From Hyphomicrobiaceae bacterium (lineage in GTDB: Bacteria; Pseudomonadota; Alphaproteobacteria; Rhizobiales; Hyphomicrobiaceae): DNA of 64,000 bases. This document shows positions 5,758-64,000 of this stretch, in pieces (position 1 is the first letter of the stretch; each line of letters begins with the position of its first letter). Under the pieces are notes generated by a model that saw only the letters and a list, made by a program, of their open reading frames with translations, had not been told where the DNA came from and made no database searches. The position numbers and the translations under genes were made by a program. The DNA lies in NCBI GenBank assembly GCA_016793635.1, contig JAEUMD010000011.1, forward strand, positions 372,001-436,000, in the 5' to 3' direction.

Positions 5758-6162
5758 TCAGCTGTACGGAGCGAAATTGCGCAGAAGCGATGCGAGGCCA
5801 CGCTCGCGGACCAGCCGGGCCGCCTCTCCAGGCGGGCACCAGAGCTGCCGGCGCCGGTTCCTTTCCGGCCATTCGGCCGCCTGGGTATCGACCAGCAGAG
5901 CGTAAACCTCGACGTGTGCGCGAACCCAGGACAGGAAGTGCAGGCGCTTGGTGTACTCGTAGCGGCCGATCGGCTCTATACCCATATCCCCCGTGATACC
6001 GGCTTCCTCCAGCGCCTCGCGCGCCGCGAGTTCCCGCGGCGTCAGCTTCGGCTTGGCCCACCCCTTCGGAATGACCCAGCGGCCCGTATCCCGGCTGGTG
6101 ACGAGCAGGACGAGCGGCCCCTCCGGCGTCTCCACGTAGGGCAAGGCGGCGTACTGCTGCAA
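5758..6162 (-). CDS. Nudix hydrolase
   Basis: Small Nudix hydrolase likely to cleave a nucleoside-diphosphate-linked or diphosphoinositol-type substrate; the exact substrate is unknown. The Nudix box reads GWAKPKLTPRELAAREALEE followed by AGI, keeping the REALEEAG core, with leucine where the first glutamate of the consensus usually stands, as in several PKGW-type family members. No ATG lies close to the conserved N-terminus (QQYAALPY). I chose TTG at 6162, which has GGGGAG about 8 bases upstream; a start further upstream is possible. It is convergently placed behind the PiT gene and divergent from the lipid kinase. About 134 residues. Confidence 0.75.
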   Translation of the reverse strand: MQQYAALPYVETPEGPLVLLVTSRDTGRWVIPKGWAKPKLTPRELAAREALEEAGITGDMGIEPIGRYEYTKRLHFLSWVRAHVEVYALLVDTQAAEWPERNRRRQLWCPPGEAARLVRERGLASLLRNFAPYS

Positions 6163-13815: not shown

Positions 13816-14657
13816 GCGATGCCCTTTCTCCGGTCATGGCCAGTCAGAATCGTGGGCGCGACCGTAGCACGAGGAGTGCGGCTGGTTGCACGCGCCAGTT
13901 AGGCGAATTCGCCGTCACCTCTACGGTTTTCAACGGCCGCTTCGTGCTGCGCCGCAGGAAGCCGGCGCACGCCTCACGCGGGCATGCGCGAAGCCCCGCG
14001 CCCCGTTGGCGGGCGGCGGCGGAAAGCCTGCATCGAAGTGGAGAATCGGCCGGACTGGCGCCAGCACTCCTCGTGGTAGGCAGGCATGCCCGGCGACGAC
14101 CGACAAGTGATCCCGGACCATTGTTTTATGACTATAGCGGGATGGGGCTTTGCCAGATTTCCTTGCGTCGCGAAACCCGCGAAGCGCCAGCGCGGCCTCG
14201 AGTGAACCATTTGCGAGGGTGCAGCTCCAGCGGCGGCGTTGGCGCTCCATCTGCCGGGAAAGAGCCCCGCGAACCGCCAACGGCTGAGCCGCAAAACGAC
14301 CAAACGGACGGAGATGCTCAGACCGGGTGGTGTTGTATCCACTCCATTGGAACAAGCGCGACGAGCCATGCGCTAAGTTTGCAGGCAAGCCCCACGGTCG
14401 CCCACCGGACACCCGCGCACTGAACGTTCCCCCAGCGACCGCGCCGACGCTGCCCCCCGTCCCGCCTTACGGAAGGCGGCGCCCGCCCCGCCGCCCAGAC
14501 TTGGCTTCGTGCAAAGCTCTCCGCCCCTGCGACCGCGTTCCCTCGCTTGCCCGTCGCAGAGCCCGTGAAGGTTCAGCCACCCCGCGCTTCCACCTTCGCG
14601 GACATCGCCGTCCCCCGAAGTCGCGCCCCCCAGCGCTCCCTCCGGAGTGCACAGAGA

Positions 14658-18753: not shown

Positions 18754-20043
18754 TCAATCGAACGGCAACGAGCTGCCGTGAACGCTGCTCCTGCTACTCG
18801 CCGTCAGCATCGTTCGTGCCAACTGGCGGGCCTCCTCGTCCACTGCCAAAACGTCGTCCAACGCGGCGCGGGGCCCGAGCAGGCCTCGGCCATCCGCCGT
18901 TTCAAGGCATTTGGCGACCGTCTCGGCAATATCAAGAAAGCCGATTCGACCTGCGAGAAAAGCGTGCACCGCGATTTCGTTGGCGGCGTTCAGCACCGCC
19001 GGGGCGCAGCCGCCACGCTGCAACGCGGCGCGGGCGAGCGCGATCGCCGGAAAGCGGGTTTCGTCAGGAGCTTCGAACGTGAGCTGTCCGAGGCGCACGA
19101 GATCGAGCCGCTCGGTCGGCGCGTCCATCCGGCTCGGCCAGGAGAGCGCGAGCGCGATCGGCGTGCGCATGTCGGGCGACGACAACTGCGCCAGCACGGA
19201 GCCATCACGGTAAGAGACGAGGCAATGCACGATCGACTGGGGATGAACGACGATGCGGATCTGTTCGACCGCGACGGGGAACAGGTGGTAGGCCTCGATC
19301 AGCTCGAGCCCCTTGTTCATCATCGTCGCCGAATCGATGGTGATCTTGGCCCCCATCGACCAGTTGGGGTGTCGCAGCGCCTCGCTCGGCAGCGCTTTGG
19401 CGAGACGGGCAATGTCCCATTCCCGGAACGGACCGCCTGACGCCGTGAGCGTTATCTCCTCGATCCAACCGGGCTCCGCGTTGCCGATGGCCTGGAACGC
19501 GGCCGAATGCTCGGAATCGACCGGAAGCAGCTCGGTCGAGGCGGCGCGGGTCTCGCGCATAAAGATGTCGCCCGCCGTGACCAGGCATTCCTTGTTGGCG
19601 AGCGCGACACGCCGACCCTGGCGAACCGCGGCGATGGTCGGCGGAAGGCCGGCGGCGCCGACGATGGCGGCGACCACGCAATCGGCCGGGCGCGACGCCG
19701 CCTCGACCAGTGCAGCAGGCCCAGCGGCGGCCTCGATGCCGGTGCCTGAGAGCAACTCGGCCAGCCGCGGATAGGCAGCGGGCTCGGCGACGACGGCGAC
19801 GCGCGCGCGATGTGCGATCGCGAGGCGAGCCAGCCCTTCGGCGTCGGCATTTGCCGTCAATGCCTCGATTTCGAAAGCTTCGCCCGAACGGGCGACGAGA
19901 TCGAGCGTGCTGCGACCGATCGACCCCGTGGCACCGAGCACCGTGATGCGGCGCGCGCCCCCGCCGAGGCCAGTGGGTTCGACCTTCCCGGCGGCGCACG
20001 CCGTCGCCGAATGCGGTCTCCCGCTCGTCGCAGAAGCTCTCAT
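18754..20043 (-). CDS. dxr: 1-deoxy-D-xylulose-5-phosphate reductoisomerase
   Basis: Converts DXP to MEP in the non-mevalonate isoprenoid pathway, feeding undecaprenyl phosphate made by UppS. About 429 residues including an extra N-terminal stretch of about 30. NADPH-binding motif GATGSIGRSTLDLV at about residue 37, metal/substrate motif GAKITIDSATMMNKGLELIE near residue 235. ATG 20043 lies 45 bases after the cdsA stop. A start nearer the conserved region is possible because the first 30 residues are low in family similarity. Confidence 0.96.
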   Translation of the reverse strand: MRASATSGRPHSATACAAGKVEPTGLGGGARRITVLGATGSIGRSTLDLVARSGEAFEIEALTANADAEGLARLAIAHRARVAVVAEPAAYPRLAELLSGTGIEAAAGPAALVEAASRPADCVVAAIVGAAGLPPTIAAVRQGRRVALANKECLVTAGDIFMRETRAASTELLPVDSEHSAAFQAIGNAEPGWIEEITLTASGGPFREWDIARLAKALPSEALRHPNWSMGAKITIDSATMMNKGLELIEAYHLFPVAVEQIRIVVHPQSIVHCLVSYRDGSVLAQLSSPDMRTPIALALSWPSRMDAPTERLDLVRLGQLTFEAPDETRFPAIALARAALQRGGCAPAVLNAANEIAVHAFLAGRIGFLDIAETVAKCLETADGRGLLGPRAALDDVLAVDEEARQLARTMLTASSRSSVHGSSLPFD

Positions 20044-58135: not shown

Positions 58136-58210
58136 GGTCCCTTCGTCTATCGGTTAGGACGCGAGATTTTCAATCTTGAAAGACGGGTTCGACTCCCGTA
58201 GGGACCGCCA
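58136..58210 (+). tRNA. tRNA-Glu (anticodon TTC)
   Basis: 75 bases including encoded CCA. Acceptor stem GGTCCCT/AGGGACC, D-loop with TCGGTTAGGAC, anticodon stem CGAGA/TCTTG (one G-U pair) with loop TTTTCAA giving anticodon TTC, and T-arm ACGGGTTCGACTCCCGT. Its 3-prime end is followed at once by an integrase-led element, so it is very probably the integration site. Confidence 0.96.
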
Positions 58211-58391
58211 CCCGCCAATGCACGGCAGTGCACCCCACCGCTTCCCCGATCCCCGCACCCGCAGAAATGCTTGAGTTTTCCCGTTTCCGTGTGCACGGGG
58301 GTGCTCCCCGTTGCACCCGAAGCACTGTACGGTGCTGGGGTGAATGCTGGGGTGCGACGGCCGCGCCCCAGCACGACGGAAGGGGGGAGCG
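58190..58391 (+). other. Left attachment region of the integrated element
   Basis: The element begins at or within the 3-prime part of tRNA-Glu. Between the tRNA and the integrase start lie two copies of TGCTGGGGTG with a 12-base period (58333-58342, 58345-58354) and further GGGTGC sequences, which could be integrase arm sites. The core duplication cannot be seen because the right end is outside the window. Confidence 0.55.
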
Positions 58392-59666
58392 ATGGCGCGG
58401 GCGATGCACAAGCTCACGGCGCGCGGGGTGCAGACCGCCGCGAAGACCGGGCGGCACAGCGACGGCGGGGGGCTCTATCTCGTCGTGGACGCCAAGGCCA
58501 GCGATGAGGGGGCGAAGCACCTAGGAAAGCGATGGGTGTTCATCTACCGGCGCAAGCGCGACGGGCGGCAATCCGAGATGGGGCTGGGTGGCCTCGCGTC
58601 CGTCAGTCTCGCCGACGCACGCAACCTGGCGGCTGAAGCCCGAAAGCATCTCGCCGCCGGCCGCGATCCGATCGACGAGCGCCGCTCCACCGAGGCGGCC
58701 CAGCGCCAGCCGGCGAGCACGCGGACGTTCGGCGCCGTCGCGGACGCCCTGAGGGCCGCCAAGTCTCCGGAGTGGCGCAACGCCAAGCATCGGGCGCAAT
58801 GGCGGATGACGCTCGACGTGTACGCCGGCCCGCTGCGCGAGAAGGCCGTCGACGAGATCACGACCGAAGACGTGCTCGCGGTCCTCATGCCGATCTGGTC
58901 GACGAAGCCGGAAACCGCCTCGCGGACGCGCGCCCGCATCGAGGCCGTGCTCGATGCCGCGCGAGCTCGCGGGCTGATCGCGGCCGGTACGGCGAACCCG
59001 GCGCGGTGGCGCGGCCATCTCGATCACCTTCTGCCGAAGCGCGGAAAGCTCTCGCACGGCCATCACGCCGCGCTGCCGTGGGAGGATCTGCCCGCGTTCA
59101 TGCTCGAGCTGCGAGAGCGCCCCGCGATCGCCGCCCGGGCTCTCGAATGGTGCATTTTGACGGCAGCTCGTCTCGGCGAGGCGCTGGGCACGCGCTGGCG
59201 CGAGATCGACCTCTCGGCGGCCGTGTGGGAGTGCCCGGCCGAGCGGATGAAGGCCTGCAAGCCGCACCGCGTGCCGCTCTCACCGGCTGCGATCGCCGTT
59301 CTCGCCCGCGTGCCCGCCGGCGGGCCCGATGATCTCGTGTTCCCCGGGGCGAAGCGCGGCAAGCCGTTCTCCAACATGGTGATGAAGGCGCTCTTCAAGC
59401 GCATGGGCCGCGACGGCATCACCACACACGGCTTCCGCTCGACGTTCCGCGATTGGGCCGGCGAGGCGACGCCGCACCCGCGCGAAGTGTGCGAGGCCGC
59501 GCTCGCGCACGCCGTCGGCGATGCCGTCGAGCAGGCTTACCGGCGCGGTGATGCGCTCGCGAAGCGCCGCGCGCTCATGACCGACTGGGCCGCCTACTGC
59601 GGCAGCGCCGCGGGCGGCAATGTGGTGCCGCTGCGCACAGCGACGGGAGGGCGAGCCGATGGGTAA
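58392..59666 (+). CDS. int: Tyrosine-type site-specific integrase (P4-like)
   Basis: 424 residues. N-terminal DUF4102-type domain (LTARGVQTAAKTGRHSDGGG, LGGLASVSLADARNLAAEAR), core-binding domain at about 110-205, and C-terminal catalytic domain with the first Arg in TAARLGEALGTRWREID, HGFRSTFRDWA as HxxR, and the nucleophilic tyrosine in HAVGDAVEQAYRRGD. ATG 58392 has GGGGGGAGC upstream; GTG 58344 is an unlikely alternative. Its place right after tRNA-Glu fits P4-like integrases that use tRNA ends. Confidence 0.95.
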   Translation: MARAMHKLTARGVQTAAKTGRHSDGGGLYLVVDAKASDEGAKHLGKRWVFIYRRKRDGRQSEMGLGGLASVSLADARNLAAEARKHLAAGRDPIDERRSTEAAQRQPASTRTFGAVADALRAAKSPEWRNAKHRAQWRMTLDVYAGPLREKAVDEITTEDVLAVLMPIWSTKPETASRTRARIEAVLDAARARGLIAAGTANPARWRGHLDHLLPKRGKLSHGHHAALPWEDLPAFMLELRERPAIAARALEWCILTAARLGEALGTRWREIDLSAAVWECPAERMKACKPHRVPLSPAAIAVLARVPAGGPDDLVFPGAKRGKPFSNMVMKALFKRMGRDGITTHGFRSTFRDWAGEATPHPREVCEAALAHAVGDAVEQAYRRGDALAKRRALMTDWAAYCGSAAGGNVVPLRTATGGRADG

Positions 59667-60390
59667 GGGGAATCGCTGGGCCGTCTATGCGCTGGACGAT
59701 CCGAGGCGGGTTGCCGAACTCGACGAGGATCTGCGCGCCGCGGCGAACCTGCTCGAAACGGAGAATGACAACGGGCTTGCTGCGGCGACAGAGGCCGTGT
59801 GGGCACTTGTGAAATTCGCCGACCTGATCGGCCCTTATCGGTCCGAGCCGATTCAGCGATTGCTCTATGCGCTCGACGACGTTCGCGGGAATGTTCGCCC
59901 CGCCATGTTCGACGTCAAATACATATCCAGCCGAGTGCCGAGCGAACGTGCCGAATTCAACGGGCAGCTGGCCGGGATGATCGAGGTGCTCGGCGGTGCC
60001 GTGGGAAACTACAGCGCCGTGTTTCGAGGGGAAGGCGCCGCTCGGTCGGTCATTGAGAAGGCGCAAGTCTACGCCGCGCGTCGGGGCTGGATGGTGCGCG
60101 ACCTGTCCGGCCTACACGCGGAGGTCATCACAGAGTGGAAGGATGGTACGGGGCACAGAGAGCGTCACGGACCAGGGCGAAAGGGAGCCCCGAGAACAAT
60201 CGACCGGCTGCGCGCCGCGCCTGACGAAGAGCCGCTCAACCAGACTGATCTCGGAAAGCTGCGGCGTGAGCGCTTCGAGGCCCTAATGATTTGCCGCCTT
60301 GCTGATATGGCGGCGCGGCGCGGCGAAGACGTCGGCCTCTGGTGCGAGTTCCAGGCGAACCGAATCTGGTCAGAATCGAGCGACCGATAG
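59659..60390 (+). CDS. Hypothetical protein coupled to the integrase
   Basis: 243 residues, not recognised. No signal peptide or membrane segment; helical and charged, with HREEH-like basic patches around residues 175-195 (TGHRERHGPGRKGAPRTIDR). The start ATG 59659 overlaps the integrase stop by 8 bases, so the two are translationally coupled. Possibly an accessory of the element; no function can be assigned. Confidence 0.6.
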   Translation: MGKGNRWAVYALDDPRRVAELDEDLRAAANLLETENDNGLAAATEAVWALVKFADLIGPYRSEPIQRLLYALDDVRGNVRPAMFDVKYISSRVPSERAEFNGQLAGMIEVLGGAVGNYSAVFRGEGAARSVIEKAQVYAARRGWMVRDLSGLHAEVITEWKDGTGHRERHGPGRKGAPRTIDRLRAAPDEEPLNQTDLGKLRRERFEALMICRLADMAARRGEDVGLWCEFQANRIWSESSDR

Positions 60391-60504
60391 CATTTCAGGC
60401 GTCAAGCGGTTGTTTCCGGAAATTCGAACCCGGCATGTTGCGACATGCAGCGCAGCGCACGAAGCGGCGCTGTCAAGCGGAGCAGCACAGCGAGGTGCGG
60501 AGCT

Positions 60505-60705
60505 ATGAACTTTCACACGACCCAAACGGAAAGCCCGGCGCCGCCGCTGGCGCTTCGACCGGGCCCGGCGGCCAAAGCACTAGGAGTATCGCCCCGCAAG
60601 CTCGCAAAGATGCTGAAGAGCGGCGAGCTTCGGAGCGTCAAGGTGGGATGGGTTCGCCTGATCCCAATGGACGCGATCGACGAACTGCTGAAGGGCGGCG
60701 CCTAA
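60505..60705 (+). CDS. Excisionase-like helix-turn-helix DNA-binding protein
   Basis: 66 residues. The C-terminal 50 residues match the MerR/AlpA-like HTH_17 pattern: RPGPAAKALGVSPRKLAKML then RSVKVGWVRLIPMDAIDELL. Such small proteins act as excisionases or integrase activators in integrative elements. The stop overlaps the next start (TAATG). Confidence 0.72.
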   Translation: MNFHTTQTESPAPPLALRPGPAAKALGVSPRKLAKMLKSGELRSVKVGWVRLIPMDAIDELLKGGA

Positions 60706-61106
60706 TGCAATCGGCGAACGAGAACGCCTTGCCAAGCGCCCGCACCCAGCGCCTCGCCACGGTCAGCCGCATGAGCGAGGAAGCCATTCACCGCACCGTT
60801 GTCGCGCACCTCGCGAGGCGTGCGCGGCCAGGCGTCGTCTACGCGCACGTGCCGAACGGCGAAGCGCGCGGCGCCGGGCTCGGCGGCAAGCTGAAGGCGC
60901 TGGGCACGAGGGCGGGAATGCCCGACCTGATCGCCCTGCACGCCGGGCAGTTCTACGCGCTCGAGTTGAAGCGCGAAGGCGGCCGGCTCACGGAATCGCA
61001 GCGCCAGACGCTCGCCGATCTCGAGGCCGCCGGCGCTCTCACAGCGGTCGCGTACGGCCTGGACGATGCGTTGGGTCGCCTCAGTTCGTGGGGACTTTTG
61101 AGGTAG
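60705..61106 (+). CDS. VRR-NUC domain nuclease
   Basis: 133 residues. A PD-(D/E)xK nuclease of the VRR-NUC type: EEAIHRTVVAHLARRARPGV, then GMPDLIALHAGQFYALELKR with the catalytic Asp, Glu and Lys. Common in phages as a Holliday-junction or branched-DNA nuclease. Starts within the stop of the HTH gene (TAATG), so the two are coupled. Confidence 0.85.
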   Translation: MQSANENALPSARTQRLATVSRMSEEAIHRTVVAHLARRARPGVVYAHVPNGEARGAGLGGKLKALGTRAGMPDLIALHAGQFYALELKREGGRLTESQRQTLADLEAAGALTAVAYGLDDALGRLSSWGLLR

Positions 61107-61199: not shown

Positions 61200-61676
61200 A
61201 TGAGCAGCACCACGCGCCACCTAGGTGGCCATGACTACGGCACCGGCATTCCCCCGATCGATCAGCGGACCGCGCCGCCGCGCCCGTCGGTGCGCCCAGC
61301 GCCCACGCGCGGCGCGATGGAGGCGGCCGAGCCCTTCCCCGCGATCGCCGCCACGCCCGGCGAGTTCTCCGCCGACGTCGACGACGGCGCCATCGCGCTC
61401 TCTCGAACGTATCGCGCCTACGACACAGAGGTGAGCCGCATCAAACTGCGTCGGCCGTTGGCTCGCGACATCAAGCAGCATGGCAACCCGTTAAAACTCA
61501 CCACCGGCCCCGACGGCCGTGTCGCCGAAATCGAGGTGCGGTGGGACGCCGTGGCCGCCTACGTGTCGGCGCTCGCGTCACCGCCGCTCCCGCCGTCGAC
61601 GGTCGACGAGTTCGAGTTCATCGATCTCGACGCCTGCGCCGCGGTGATCGCCCGTTTTTTCGTGACGTTCCGCTAG
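61200..61676 (+). CDS. Phage tail assembly chaperone (TAC_7, gpE/gp41 type)
   Basis: 158 residues. The C-terminal 95 residues match the Phage_TAC_7 pattern: VSRIKLRRPLARDIKQHGNP, then LPPSTVDEFEFIDLDACAAV and IARFF. In P2-like phages gpE and the frameshifted E+E' protein guide tail-tube assembly over the tape measure. The N-terminal 55 residues are proline-rich and unlike the family. The frame ends four codons after a T_TTT_TTC heptamer at 61655, where a minus-one shift gives a longer product. It is oddly placed before the terminase gene and away from other tail genes. Confidence 0.75.
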   Translation: MSSTTRHLGGHDYGTGIPPIDQRTAPPRPSVRPAPTRGAMEAAEPFPAIAATPGEFSADVDDGAIALSRTYRAYDTEVSRIKLRRPLARDIKQHGNPLKLTTGPDGRVAEIEVRWDAVAAYVSALASPPLPPSTVDEFEFIDLDACAAVIARFFVTFR

Positions 61677-61697
61677 AGCGCGACGTCACTCTAGCGG
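61655..61697 (+). promoter_or_regulatory. Candidate minus-one ribosomal frameshift signal
   Basis: Heptamer T_TTT_TTC at 61655-61661 sits exactly in the gene's frame. After an 8-base spacer, CCGCTAGAG (61670-61678) and CTCTAGCGG (61689-61697) form a perfect 9-bp stem with a 10-base loop. GTGACGT (61662-61668) is complementary to ACGTCAC (61683-61689) in the loop, so an H-type pseudoknot is also possible. Confidence 0.8.
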
Positions 61698-61822
61698 CTT
61701 ACTGGCTAGCGCACACGTACCGGTGCGATCCGGACGTGTTCCTGGCGAAGTCCCCCGACGAGCTCGTCGCGCACATCGCCGAAACGCAACGCTTGATGAA
61801 GAAAATGGAGCGCCGCCGATGA
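61661..61822 (+). CDS. Minus-one frameshift extension of the tail chaperone (gpE'/GpE type)
   Basis: Re-reading base 61661 after a minus-one shift opens 53 codons up to TGA 61822, giving a 207-residue fusion. The extension (LAAYWLAHTYRCDPDVFLAK, SPDELVAHIAE) has the pattern of P2 GpE-type extensions: a helix, a Pro-Asp turn, and a second helix. The next gene overlaps its stop by four bases (ATGA), which suggests this frame is really translated. Confidence 0.72.
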   Translation, partial: RDVPLERDVTLAAYWLAHTYRCDPDVFLAKSPDELVAHIAETQRLMKKMERRR

Positions 61823-62034
61823 CGTCGAACGTGATCGAGTTCCCTGGCCGCCGGCCGCCTGCTGACGTTGCGCAGACGCCGCCGGCTTCGCCGCAGCACG
61901 CCCGCGCAGCCGGCGCGATCTCCGCGCTACTACGCGGCGAGTTCCGAGACGGTGCCGTCGCCCGGCTGGCTCGTGCGACCGGCTTCGCCGCCGTCCTCCT
62001 GCGCGCGCCATCCGGCGCTGAGCGGGACCGATAA
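61819..62034 (+). CDS. Small hypothetical element protein
   Basis: 71 residues: MTSNVIEFPGRRPPAD, then an alanine-rich helical segment and a charged C-terminus. Starts in the stop of the frameshift extension (ATGA), so it is translationally coupled. No family recognised. Confidence 0.55.
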   Translation: MTSNVIEFPGRRPPADVAQTPPASPQHARAAGAISALLRGEFRDGAVARLARATGFAAVLLRAPSGAERDR

Positions 62035-62039
62035 ACGCG

Positions 62040-62069
62040 ACGGGCTGAGCGTTGGAGCGCTCAGCCCGT
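62040..62069 (+). terminator. Hairpin after the tail-chaperone gene cluster
   Basis: ACGGGCTGAGCG, loop TTGGAG, CGCTCAGCCCGT: a perfect 12-bp stem 6 bases after the stop. No U-tract, so termination may be partial or Rho-assisted. Confidence 0.6.
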
Positions 62070-62152
62070 TCGATGCCTACCAGTGCCCGTTGCGTCCCCG
62101 TTCACCTCGCCAGGTGCGCTGCCGATCGGCAGCCGAAGCGGAAGAACACGCC

Positions 62153-62347
62153 GTGAACACCATAGCAGAGCATCAGCGCCCGCGCCACTGCGCGGCGCGC
62201 GCCGAGATCGTATGCGTTGAAGGCCGCCGGCATCTACGCCGCCGCGTGCACCGCGTCGAGCACCGGCGGGGCCTCATCGTCGTGCATGTGCGCTCGCGGC
62301 TGTTGCCGCTCCCAGCGACGTTCGCTGGCGGGAGGGCGGCGCGATGA
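62153..62347 (+). CDS. Small basic hypothetical protein
   Basis: 64 residues from GTG 62153 with GGAAGAA upstream; many Arg and His residues (EGRRHLRRRVHRVEHRRGLI). Its stop overlaps the next start (ATGA). Could be a DNA- or RNA-binding protein, but it is only a likely gene. Confidence 0.4.
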   Translation: MNTIAEHQRPRHCAARAEIVCVEGRRHLRRRVHRVEHRRGLIVVHVRSRLLPLPATFAGGRAAR

Positions 62348-63048
62348 GCTGGCCGTTCATCAAAATGCCTCGCGGCCGGCTGTCCGAGTGGGCCGACTTG
62401 CTCGGGGAAAAATTCCTCGCGCAATGGCTCCGGTTAGTCGACGAATCACTGAGCGAACCGCAGCCCATGCCGGCCAGCGGCTACACCTCGCCCTGGCTGC
62501 GACGTCGCACGGGCTGCCAGAACGATGCGCACGTTGCCCGGTTCCTCTCTGCCTTACGTGTTGCCGGGCTCGCCGTCGACACTGACACGGGTATCGCTTT
62601 CCCGTTCATCGACGAGGTTTGGGCTGCCCGCGCCGCGCATTCGATGACGAAGAGCGAGAACGGCAAGGGCAACAAGGGTAAGCATCGGCCGGCGCCTCGG
62701 CCGGATCTCGACGGAGCGTCGACGGCGCCGGCGCGCGCCGTGCTGCCCTTGCCGTTGGAAAATACGTCGGAGAAACAGGGCGGGGTGCTAACGGCCGATG
62801 AGCACTCGTCGACAGAAGAAGATTCAGACGAAGATGAAGAAATAGAATCTTCCCCCTCTCGTCCCCCAAGGGCTCGCGTTGGCGCTCTGATCGCACAAGC
62901 AACTGGCGCGGTTGCGCCTGGCGCAGTGAAGAGGCTCGGCAGTGAGAGTGCCGGAGCGCCGGTGAGCACAGGCGAACCCGATCTCCCGCTGAAGCAAGTT
63001 CGCACAACTGCGGCCCTTCGTGGCTCCGATCTCGTCAACCGTCACTGA
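62344..63048 (+). CDS. Hypothetical element protein with acidic disordered middle
   Basis: 234 residues. The first 100 residues are compact and contain a possible winged-helix (RRRTGCQNDAHVARFLSALR); then a low-complexity acidic stretch (STEEDSDEDEEIESSPS, near residue 160) and a basic C-terminus. It could be a phage replication or DNA-binding protein, but I cannot assign it. It is followed by the small-terminase-like gene nine bases after its stop. Confidence 0.6.
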   Translation: MSWPFIKMPRGRLSEWADLLGEKFLAQWLRLVDESLSEPQPMPASGYTSPWLRRRTGCQNDAHVARFLSALRVAGLAVDTDTGIAFPFIDEVWAARAAHSMTKSENGKGNKGKHRPAPRPDLDGASTAPARAVLPLPLENTSEKQGGVLTADEHSSTEEDSDEDEEIESSPSRPPRARVGALIAQATGAVAPGAVKRLGSESAGAPVSTGEPDLPLKQVRTTAALRGSDLVNRH

Positions 63049-63057
63049 GGCCCATCG

Positions 63058-63693
63058 ATGCGCGCTCCCCTCTCCGAACCTTTCGATTCGAACGCCCTCA
63101 CACCGCAACAGGAGCTCTTCGCGCAAGCCTATGCGCAGCACGGCACCGGCGCCGAAGCGCACAGGCAGGCGTACCCTGACGCGAGGTATGGCCGTAACTC
63201 CCGACGCGGGTCGCACCATGGGGAACTGAAAAGGCGCGGCGAACGGGCCCGCGAGGCGCTGATGAACCCCAAGGTGGCGGCACGAATCCTCGAGTTGATG
63301 CCAAATCGCATTGCCGAGTTGAGAGCGAATCCGACCGACGATGAGGCGCAGCACCTCGCCGAGCGACTCCGCGTCAAGCTCGGGCATCTGCGCATCCGCA
63401 TGGCGGCCGCGACGGCGCGCGAGGCAGGCAAGTGGGAGCACCCGCGCGGCATGGTCGTGACGTCGGCGGCGACACTGGCGCCGAGCGCCCTGGGCGCGGA
63501 ACAGCTCGCGGACCTGGTTCGGATCGCAGCGCGCGAAGACATGCCGGCGGCCGTACGGCGGGAAGCGCTTGCCGCCGCGCTGCCGCAACTCGAGGCCCTT
63601 CGCCAAGCTCTCGCCAACACCAATGGCAACGGCTGTGTCCGGTCGGCGATTGCACCCGCCGACGATCGCGGCCAGCATTGTGATTCGCCGTGA
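63058..63693 (+). CDS. Small terminase subunit-like protein
   Basis: 211 residues. The N-terminus LTPQQELFAQAYAQHGTGAE then AHRQAYPD follows the terminase small-subunit HTH pattern. A coiled helical middle part and LADLVRIAAREDMPAAVRRE follow. In phages this protein recognises the packaging site; the large subunit would lie to the right, outside the window. Confidence 0.65.
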   Translation: MRAPLSEPFDSNALTPQQELFAQAYAQHGTGAEAHRQAYPDARYGRNSRRGSHHGELKRRGERAREALMNPKVAARILELMPNRIAELRANPTDDEAQHLAERLRVKLGHLRIRMAAATAREAGKWEHPRGMVVTSAATLAPSALGAEQLADLVRIAAREDMPAAVRREALAAALPQLEALRQALANTNGNGCVRSAIAPADDRGQHCDSP

Positions 63694-63715: not shown

Positions 63716-64000
63716 ATGGTCGGCATGGTAGGCAGCAGCGGAGCGGTAGGGACGTCGGCAGTCGGCGGCAGTCGCGCGCGGCGAGCGCCGCCGCGGATAG
63801 CCCCAGCACCCACGCCACGAGGCGCAGGAGCCGCGAAGGCGCTCGGGGCGCGGGTGACGTGCCCTGCTCCCGAAACGCCCGCCCAGCGCGCAGCCAGGGG
63901 CTTTCTCGCATGGTTGCGCGAGCACGACCTCTGCCGCGAGTGGACCGTCGACGATGTTTGGTATCTCGCCGAAGCCGACTTCGCCGAGGCGCTCGGCCTC
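63716..64000 (+). CDS. Hypothetical protein, 5-prime part (runs off the right edge)
   Basis: ATG 63716 with AGGAGG 7 bases upstream; the frame stays open to the edge (95 codons). An Ala/Pro/Arg-rich stretch of about 60 residues precedes a more ordered segment (FLAWLREHDLCREWTVDDVW). No family recognised; it may be a phage-type protein given its place after the small-terminase-like gene. Confidence 0.6.
   Translation, partial: MVGMVGSSGAVGTSAVGGSRARRAPPRIAPAPTPRGAGAAKALGARVTCPAPETPAQRAARGFLAWLREHDLCREWTVDDVWYLAEADFAEALGL

Follow-up and report, generated by a model that had tools for sequence, protein, structure and literature searches.

Frameshifted tail chaperones and phage satellites

Phages P2 (E and E+E') and lambda (G and GT) produce two forms of a tail assembly chaperone (TAC) by a -1 frameshift just ahead of the gene for the tape measure protein (TMP), in P2 at the heptamer T_TTT_TTG; many tailed dsDNA phages have conserved this arrangement. 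In this study, we analyzed a TAC gene with a comparable signal in a 64-kb window of the Hyphomicrobiaceae contig JAEUMD010000011.1 (positions 372,001 to 436,000; "the window" is this whole stretch, and its numbering is used throughout), where the gene lies in an integrated element of about 17.1 kb. Compared to P2 and lambda, the heptamer ends in C in eight of nine aligned TAC loci ("rows", including the window), and the window TAC lies 2.4 kb from the TMP gene, in a small element in which no other tail genes were found. On balance, we consider it probable that this TAC is made in two forms by a -1 slip and that it belongs to a phage satellite that builds chimeric tails together with a helper phage. 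Concerning the known systems, passages of PMC5009743 describe the role of lambda G/GT and give a 2-3 fold higher efficiency for P2, while E, 41, and 14 are among the proteins grouped in family PF10109 (Phage_TAC_7).

As in the contractile tail cassettes of the Mu type (Mu gp41, ST64B sb13-sb18), the relatives carry genes for sheath, tube, TAC, TMP, a DNA-circularisation protein, and a GpP-like hub. Mu is said to use a -2 shift, and no shift site was found in KS10, according to a passage of PMC2628397 citing Xu et al. 2004. In Salmonella phage ST64B (NC_004313.1), sb15 revealed T_TTT_TTT in register, followed by a -1 frame of 54 aa (L052:6604-6768) with its end over the TMP start. This frame is not annotated as joined, and it was not among the matches listed for the extension profile described below, which reached an E-value of 0.91.

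In regard to the element, a parallel is found in PLE11, a satellite of Vibrio cholerae belonging to the phage-inducible chromosomal island-like elements (PLEs), which is likewise integrated and carries its own TMP and TAC genes but not the rest of a tail. PLEs use a large serine recombinase, whereas the integrases of our element are tyrosine recombinases (PF00589); here, the comparison with PLEs is one by description and not gene by gene. As reported in parts of PMC12987554, PLE11 has genes for TMP, TAC, and a baseplate hub and forms chimeric tails, its virions combining TMP and hub from the PLE with a tail that otherwise comes from ICP1. There, PLEs are presented as the first satellite family known to build tails with parts of their own and the benefit of this is asked, tmp genes are predicted for PLE-like elements as well as for some capsid-forming phage-inducible chromosomal islands (cf-PICIs; legend of Extended Data Fig. 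10), and the word "frameshift" occurs 0 times in the main text. Features reminiscent of PICIs are the integrase at the tRNA end, a small helix-turn-helix (HTH) protein, and a gene similar to the terminase small subunit (TerS), with no TerL gene found. TerS-like and HTH_17 proteins were seen, but an identity as AlpA, Stl, or Pri-Rep was not established, and, in contrast to cf-PICIs, no capsid genes were found among the scanned open reading frames (ORFs). Among the papers listed by our literature search, none dealt with a satellite with a frameshifted tail chaperone and none with an alphaproteobacterial phage satellite with a tape measure gene.

The frameshift site and its conservation

The TAC gene starts with ATG at 61200 and ends in the 0 frame with TAG at 61674-61676, 12 nt past the heptamer. 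As described in the initial annotation of this DNA, T_TTT_TTC stands in exact register at 61655-61661 (CGT TTT TTC at 61653-61661, with in-frame codons TTT at 61656-61658 and TTC at 61659-61661), and all coordinates agreed, including those of the -1 frame, which is open for 53 codons after the shift up to TGA at 61820-61822, and of the next ATG (61819-61821), which overlaps this stop. The fusion product would have 154 + 53 = 207 residues compared to 158 aa of the unshifted form. On the two strands of the 64-kb window together, TTTTTTC was counted three times. The identification as a tail chaperone was also borne out, since the 158-aa protein scored 26.6 bits against PF10109 (curated cut-off 25); it also matched the tail protein family phrog_166 (E 7e-4). 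The -1 segment, which had been called GpE-like, matched no GpE family and no meaningful Pfam family (the only rows were zinc fingers, E 0.16-0.17), and no helpful match came from searching the PDB with profiles of the TAC and of the extension.

Relatives were gathered by scans of viral contigs (viral_contigs) with TMP, TAC, and VRR-NUC queries. A related TAC was present in nine metagenomic contigs, namely 001236 (L004/L007), 000059 (L008), 000010 (L005/L009), 000292 (L010), 001223 (L011), 000481 (L012), 000346 (L013), 000103 (L037), and 000666 (L049). Since L010 and L012 are identical in their proteins and in the flanking letters at the site, they were counted once, so that eight loci were distinct at the frameshift site and nine rows were obtained with the window. 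A U-run heptamer in register was kept in all nine, as T_TTT_TTC in eight and as T_TTT_TTT in L049; its conservation in relatives had been named beforehand as a check, while the final C, which had been pointed out for this copy, turned out to be a trait of the clade and no oddity of a single locus. The codon ahead of the heptamer was CGT, GGT, or CCT, i.e., the residue varied between R, G, and P with the third base always T, and the first Phe codon was TTT in 9/9 rows. In the seven loci counted, Phe is encoded by TTT in 6-43% of cases, and the residue preceding the heptamer by a codon ending in T in 3-21%. Naive multiplication results in about 8e-6 for seven TTT and about 5e-7 for seven T, though the ORFs were chosen roughly and independence of the rows is not given.

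The -1 frame was free of stops over 55 codons in seven of the nine rows and ended at 54 and 53 codons in L011 and L013, respectively. A profile of six phage extensions found the window (1.9e-24), L037 (4e-8), and L049 (5e-7), whereas none of 3000 shuffled decoys scored better than 0.011, which revealed the -1 frame as homologous in relatives. Judged from the sequences, this conservation is the decisive evidence, and the TAC gene very likely contains a programmed -1 frameshift, as had been proposed, of an ordinary and known kind.

One might consider that the -1 segment is translated independently from a start codon of its own, with no frameshift, as the -1 frame of the window offers a GTG 114 nt ahead of the heptamer, and a start codon before the conserved block also exists in L009, L010, and L011. 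However, in L007, L008, and L013 (three of seven rows), no ATG, GTG, or TTG lies between the opening of the frame and the block, which therefore needs the shift, and the conserved residues begin right at the slip site (FF in 7/7), making such a protein extremely improbable. Slippage of the RNA polymerase instead of the ribosome on the U-run would be in line with the fact that runs of T6-T7 can be slippery and with the unconserved downstream structure. Against it, polymerases would be expected to need a run longer than six bases, and a tandem slip of the ribosome agrees with both the register of the codons and the T that invariably ends the codon ahead, so that we regard it as very unlikely.

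As for a stimulatory structure, the 8-nt spacer (61662-61669) and the 9-bp stem (61670-61697) exist as described, with CCGCTAGAG at 61670-61678 pairing with CTCTAGCGG at 61689-61697 around a 10-nt loop. Perfect hairpins of at least 9 bp (loop 3-15) were found at five places in the 17.1-kb element, and by simple arithmetic the chance of one starting 8 nt past the heptamer is roughly 0.2%. A competing hairpin with zero spacer (61662-61689) revealed -14.8 kcal/mol compared to -14.6 for the 9-bp stem, but the 9-bp stem is favoured once at least the first 3 nt are kept unpaired, as they would be with the heptamer inside a ribosome; a ribosome in this position would melt the zero-spacer hairpin and free the stem. 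The two pairings had also been suggested to form a pseudoknot, since GTGACGT (61662-61668) could pair with ACGTCAC (61683-61689). This candidate was rejected on geometry alone: in the order a-b-a'-b' with loops of 1, 4, and 0 nt, loop 3 cannot cross 6-7 bp, and the helices share base 61689. The two pairings are better seen as alternative hairpins of near-equal energy.

The idea that the stem is a conserved stimulator had to be given up. Folding energy by itself gave a mixed picture for the window, with z-scores of -1.35 (45 nt), -1.17 (60 nt), and -3.01 (80 nt). When pairing of the first 5 nt was prevented, the stability of the window was matched at 20% of 842 background positions of the element. 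At 45 nt, the z-scores of seven rows were -1.35 for the window, then -1.18, -3.05 (L008), -0.29, -0.58, +1.23 (L011), and +1.87 (L013), so that only L008 fell below -2 and folded clearly better than shuffled sequences, while at 80 nt three of seven did so (window, L007 with -2.42, and L008 with -2.37). The share of equally stable background ranged from 1 to 93% over the nine rows, with L008 alone standing out at 1.2%, compared to 9% for L049 and 92-93% for L011 and L013, both of which keep both frames intact and fold no better than background. A conserved downstream stimulatory structure was not found in the rows compared and is not treated as defining; it is possible that the 9-bp hairpin acts as a stimulator in this copy only. 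Apart from that, a Shine-Dalgarno-like GGTGATC was seen 5 nt before the heptamer in four of nine rows (window, L008, L009, and L037); it also encodes a conserved V-I and is kept as a lead only.

The 17.1-kb element, its sister, and related phages

The TAC gene is not part of an ordinary prophage tail operon but lies in a small satellite-like element, integrated at a tRNA-Glu gene and bounded by a 16-bp repeat (Table 1; the downstream sequence, L002, was taken from the same genome). For comparison, the longest chance match in 60 simulated sequences was 9-14 nt. TAC and TMP, with 2.4 kb of other genes between them, were the only tail genes recognised. A tblastn search of the element with sheath, tube, DNA-circularisation, and hub queries from phage L004 gave a best E-value of 0.048, and none of the replication families matched the 234-aa and 153-aa ORFs.

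A sister element of about 18.9 kb was identified on the 19,455-bp metagenomic contig IMGVR_UViG_3300002461_000666 (L049/L053). It begins at a tRNA-Ser gene (324-413) with the integrase beside it, revealed arm repeats at 535 and 19220 that represent a shorter version of the TGCTGGGGTGAATGCTGGGGTG repeat, and repeats the end of the tRNA with 13/14 bases at 19293-19306, the chance level having been simulated only for the window repeat. Over matched parts, the backbone of both elements is mostly 60-75% identical (integrase 67%, second recombinase 70%, HTH protein 75%, 153-aa protein 70%, VRR-NUC protein 61%, membrane-like ORF 44%) compared to 41% for TAC and 27% for TMP, and the TerS proteins match over 27 residues only. 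The L049 TAC belongs to PF10109 (E 6.7e-10, 39.3 bits), and its TerS-like protein matched phrog_51 (E 4e-7); two further terminase-small-like proteins (phrog_57) were seen at 13944 and 14925. The queries for sheath, tube, DNA-circularisation, and hub remained without a match, and the other ORFs scanned revealed no head or tail family. TAC and TMP are the only tail genes that L049 shares with five phage loci. Its TAC directly precedes TMP, i.e., the cassette is placed elsewhere than in the window element. Furthermore, the TAC starts of L049 (3842-3924) and phage L007 (9366-9448) are 89% identical over 83 nt, which, from the sequences, looks like recent exchange; both contig names carry 3300002461, taken as one sample. 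Judged from the identities between the elements, from the different placement, and from the closeness to phages given below, TAC-TMP cassettes may change partners faster than the backbone.

In the phages L004 and L037, TAC has genes for sheath (PF04984/PF17482) and tube (PF10618) as neighbours, and L004 also has DNA-circularisation and GpP-like hub genes, indicating Mu-type contractile tails. Queries from L004 detected sheath and tube in 7/7 further phage loci (sheath 56-75% identical), DNA-circularisation in 6/7, and the hub in 5/7; the gaps concern L011 and L012, which are short contigs. Since sheath and tube are so readily found in the phages, it is unlikely that they were overlooked in the element because of divergence. 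When ORFs of six phage loci were compared with the element, TAC and TMP were the only matches except for a weak one of 58 aa (E 6e-4) inside the integrase region, and TAC and TMP of the window are about 60% identical to those of the phages over matched parts, closer than to the sister element.

These comparisons also bear on a decayed prophage with an ordinary TAC frameshift, in which deletions left TAC and TMP by chance. This kind of frameshift is well known (as in passages of PMC5009743 and PMC10885494), and an interrupted TMP in L049 as well as a host genome in which no resident helper was seen would suit it. Nevertheless, we consider decay unlikely, as two att-flanked elements in different tRNA genes share a common backbone and the same two tail genes only. 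Moreover, TAC and TMP of the window are intact, the TMP having the shortest end branch (0.33, nearest L007 and L008) in a tree of eight rows based on the first c. 520 residues, from which L012 (duplicate) and L049 (broken frame) were left out. Differences in the backbone are concentrated at third codon positions (integrase 0.21/0.18/0.54), and while the TAC extension runs into TMP in the phages, 2.4 kb of non-tail genes separate both in the element, an arrangement that would not result from deletion alone.

Further searches gave few matches. The TAC had none as a single-protein query in viral_contigs, in phages, and in 148 relatives besides its own genome, and TMP had none in phages, plasmids, and 384 class genomes besides its own; TMP and TAC alignments against genome contigs found nothing (this search was pattern-based and may leave out the own genome). 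The TerS-like protein was matched neither in viral_contigs nor in 396 order genomes, and in phages only by three weak Klebsiella-phage hits (best E 9e-3). The 234-aa ORF had no match in phages and viral_contigs, the 153-aa protein none in 384 class genomes. The second recombinase was found in one of 396 order genomes (G051) together with the neighbouring membrane-like ORF, TAC and TMP being unmatched there.

In regard to the remaining features, the TGCTGGGGTGAATGCTGGGGTG repeat is a probable integrase arm site, the true integrase start probably lies further downstream, and the VRR-NUC families were found in a longer ORF of the same frame (60342-61106). The second tyrosine recombinase (L002:11538-12503) is 70% identical in L049, and the ParA-like gene (L002:16371-17246) lies near the right end. 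Beyond this end, repeated palindromes, a cation-efflux gene, and gyrA follow; the palindromic repeats (L002:18403-18570, past attR), of which the related genomes G001, G003, and G006 hold many copies, resemble repetitive extragenic palindromic sequences or miniature inverted-repeat transposable elements. Just 3' of the 71-aa ORF, a perfect strong hairpin (62040-62070) appears terminator-like, though without a clear T run, and may end the TAC cassette as a separate transcript. In G002, an integrase 80% identical to that of the element is located at a contig edge (C47:6-749), and related elements may be hidden at contig breaks in G001 and G002.

Table 1. Features of the integrated element in window numbering, with L002 coordinates for positions beyond the window
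Feature	Position	Strand	Evidence or remark
tRNA-Glu (ttc), attachment site	58136..58210	+	ARAGORN
attL core CGTAGGGACCGCCACC (tRNA-Glu 3' end)	58197..58212	+	16-bp exact repeat
22-bp exact repeat TGCTGGGGTGAATGCTGGGGTG	58333..58354	+	second copy L002:18196-18217 (75196-75217), near attR
Tyrosine integrase	58344..59666	+	PF13356, PF22022, PF00589; 67% over 430 aa to L049
256-aa ORF	59620..60390	+	no family above cut-off
HTH_17 / excisionase-like protein	60445..60705	+	PF12728; phrog_66 E 1.1e-3
VRR-NUC protein	60705..61106	+	PF08774, phrog_824; 61% over 124 aa to L049
TAC, 0-frame form, 158 aa	61200..61676	+	PF10109 E 6.2e-6; 34-50% identity to 7 relatives
Slippery heptamer T_TTT_TTC	61655..61661	+	in register; U-run heptamer in 9/9 distinct rows
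-1 frame extension of TAC	61655..61822	+	profile from 6 phage rows, E 1.9e-24
9-bp hairpin 8 nt 3' of heptamer	61670..61697	+	-14.6 kcal/mol; not conserved
71-aa ORF over -1-frame stop	61819..62034	+	no PHROG or Pfam match
234-aa ORF	62344..63048	+	no family
TerS-like protein	63058..63693	+	phrog_51 E 3.2e-7
153-aa backbone protein	63716..64000 (runs to 64177)	+	70% over 86 aa to L049
TMP, 737 aa	L002:7203-9416 (64203-66416), outside window		PF10145 E 2.9e-11
Membrane-like ORF (opposite strand), HTH regulator, second tyrosine recombinase, ORFs incl. ParA-like one	beyond TMP		
attR copy of CGTAGGGACCGCCACC	L002:18280-18295 (75280-75295), beyond window		

A possible satellite with its own tail parts

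As known for phage satellites, both elements are integrated between att repeats (16 bp in the window, 13/14 bases in L049) and, as far as chosen ORFs and tblastn cover them, hold an incomplete set of virion genes. In the mechanism that we propose, most ribosomes would stop after 158 aa, while a minority would slip by -1 on U_UUU_UUC, where the tRNA-Phe in the P- and A-site re-pair with UUU UUU, giving the 207-aa form with an extra C-terminal domain, so that two forms would arise in a fixed ratio. By analogy to lambda G/GT, coating of the TMP would fall to the short form and recruitment of tail tube subunits to the long one. Upon infection by a contractile phage with a Mu-type tail, the element would supply its own complex of chaperone and TMP and the helper would contribute tube, sheath, baseplate, and head, leading to chimeric tails for the DNA of the element, which would be packaged through the TerS-like protein. 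We infer that the window element and L049 are both satellites that supply their own complex for the initiation of tail length, as was demonstrated for PLE11 in 2026. That they represent a new satellite family, set apart from PLEs by description, with exchangeable frameshifted Mu-type TAC-TMP cassettes and chimeric helper tails, is a reading that we favour slightly.

Several observations weigh against such satellites. Only two elements of this type were found, one of them on a metagenomic contig, and the TMP reading frame of L049 is broken near 5800-5863, due to either decay or an assembly error. The baseplate hub present in PLE11 was not found in the scanned ORFs, nor were capsid, portal, TerL, sheath, or tube among the ORFs chosen, which are not all ORFs of the element. 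The TerS-like protein of the window is a weak call, as it reached only 19.3 bits for Pfam Terminase_2 (cut-off 26.1). An empty att site was not recovered, since the best relative contig (G001:C415) ends 14 nt past tRNA-Glu. No helper was identified, a search of the host genome with the L004 sheath giving no match, though an empty answer alone proves nothing, and the stem downstream of the heptamer is not conserved across rows.

Alternatively, TAC and TMP could serve as an anti-phage decoy that poisons the tail assembly of an incoming phage, for which the tail poisoning by Tai, as presented in a part of PMC11364771, offers a comparison. However, a decoy has no obvious need for both chaperone forms and a full-length TMP, and the frameshift was kept in both elements, so that we regard this function as improbable.

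Returning to the satellite with chimeric tails, the frameshift by itself is of a known kind, and it is the setting of the gene that is surprising. If true, the building of tails from satellite parts would have arisen outside the Vibrio PLEs, and a frequent exchange of cassettes with phages would offer an experiment of nature from which to learn what parts of a tail need to fit each other. For programs that search for satellites, TAC and TMP genes without sheath or tube may serve as a possible signature.
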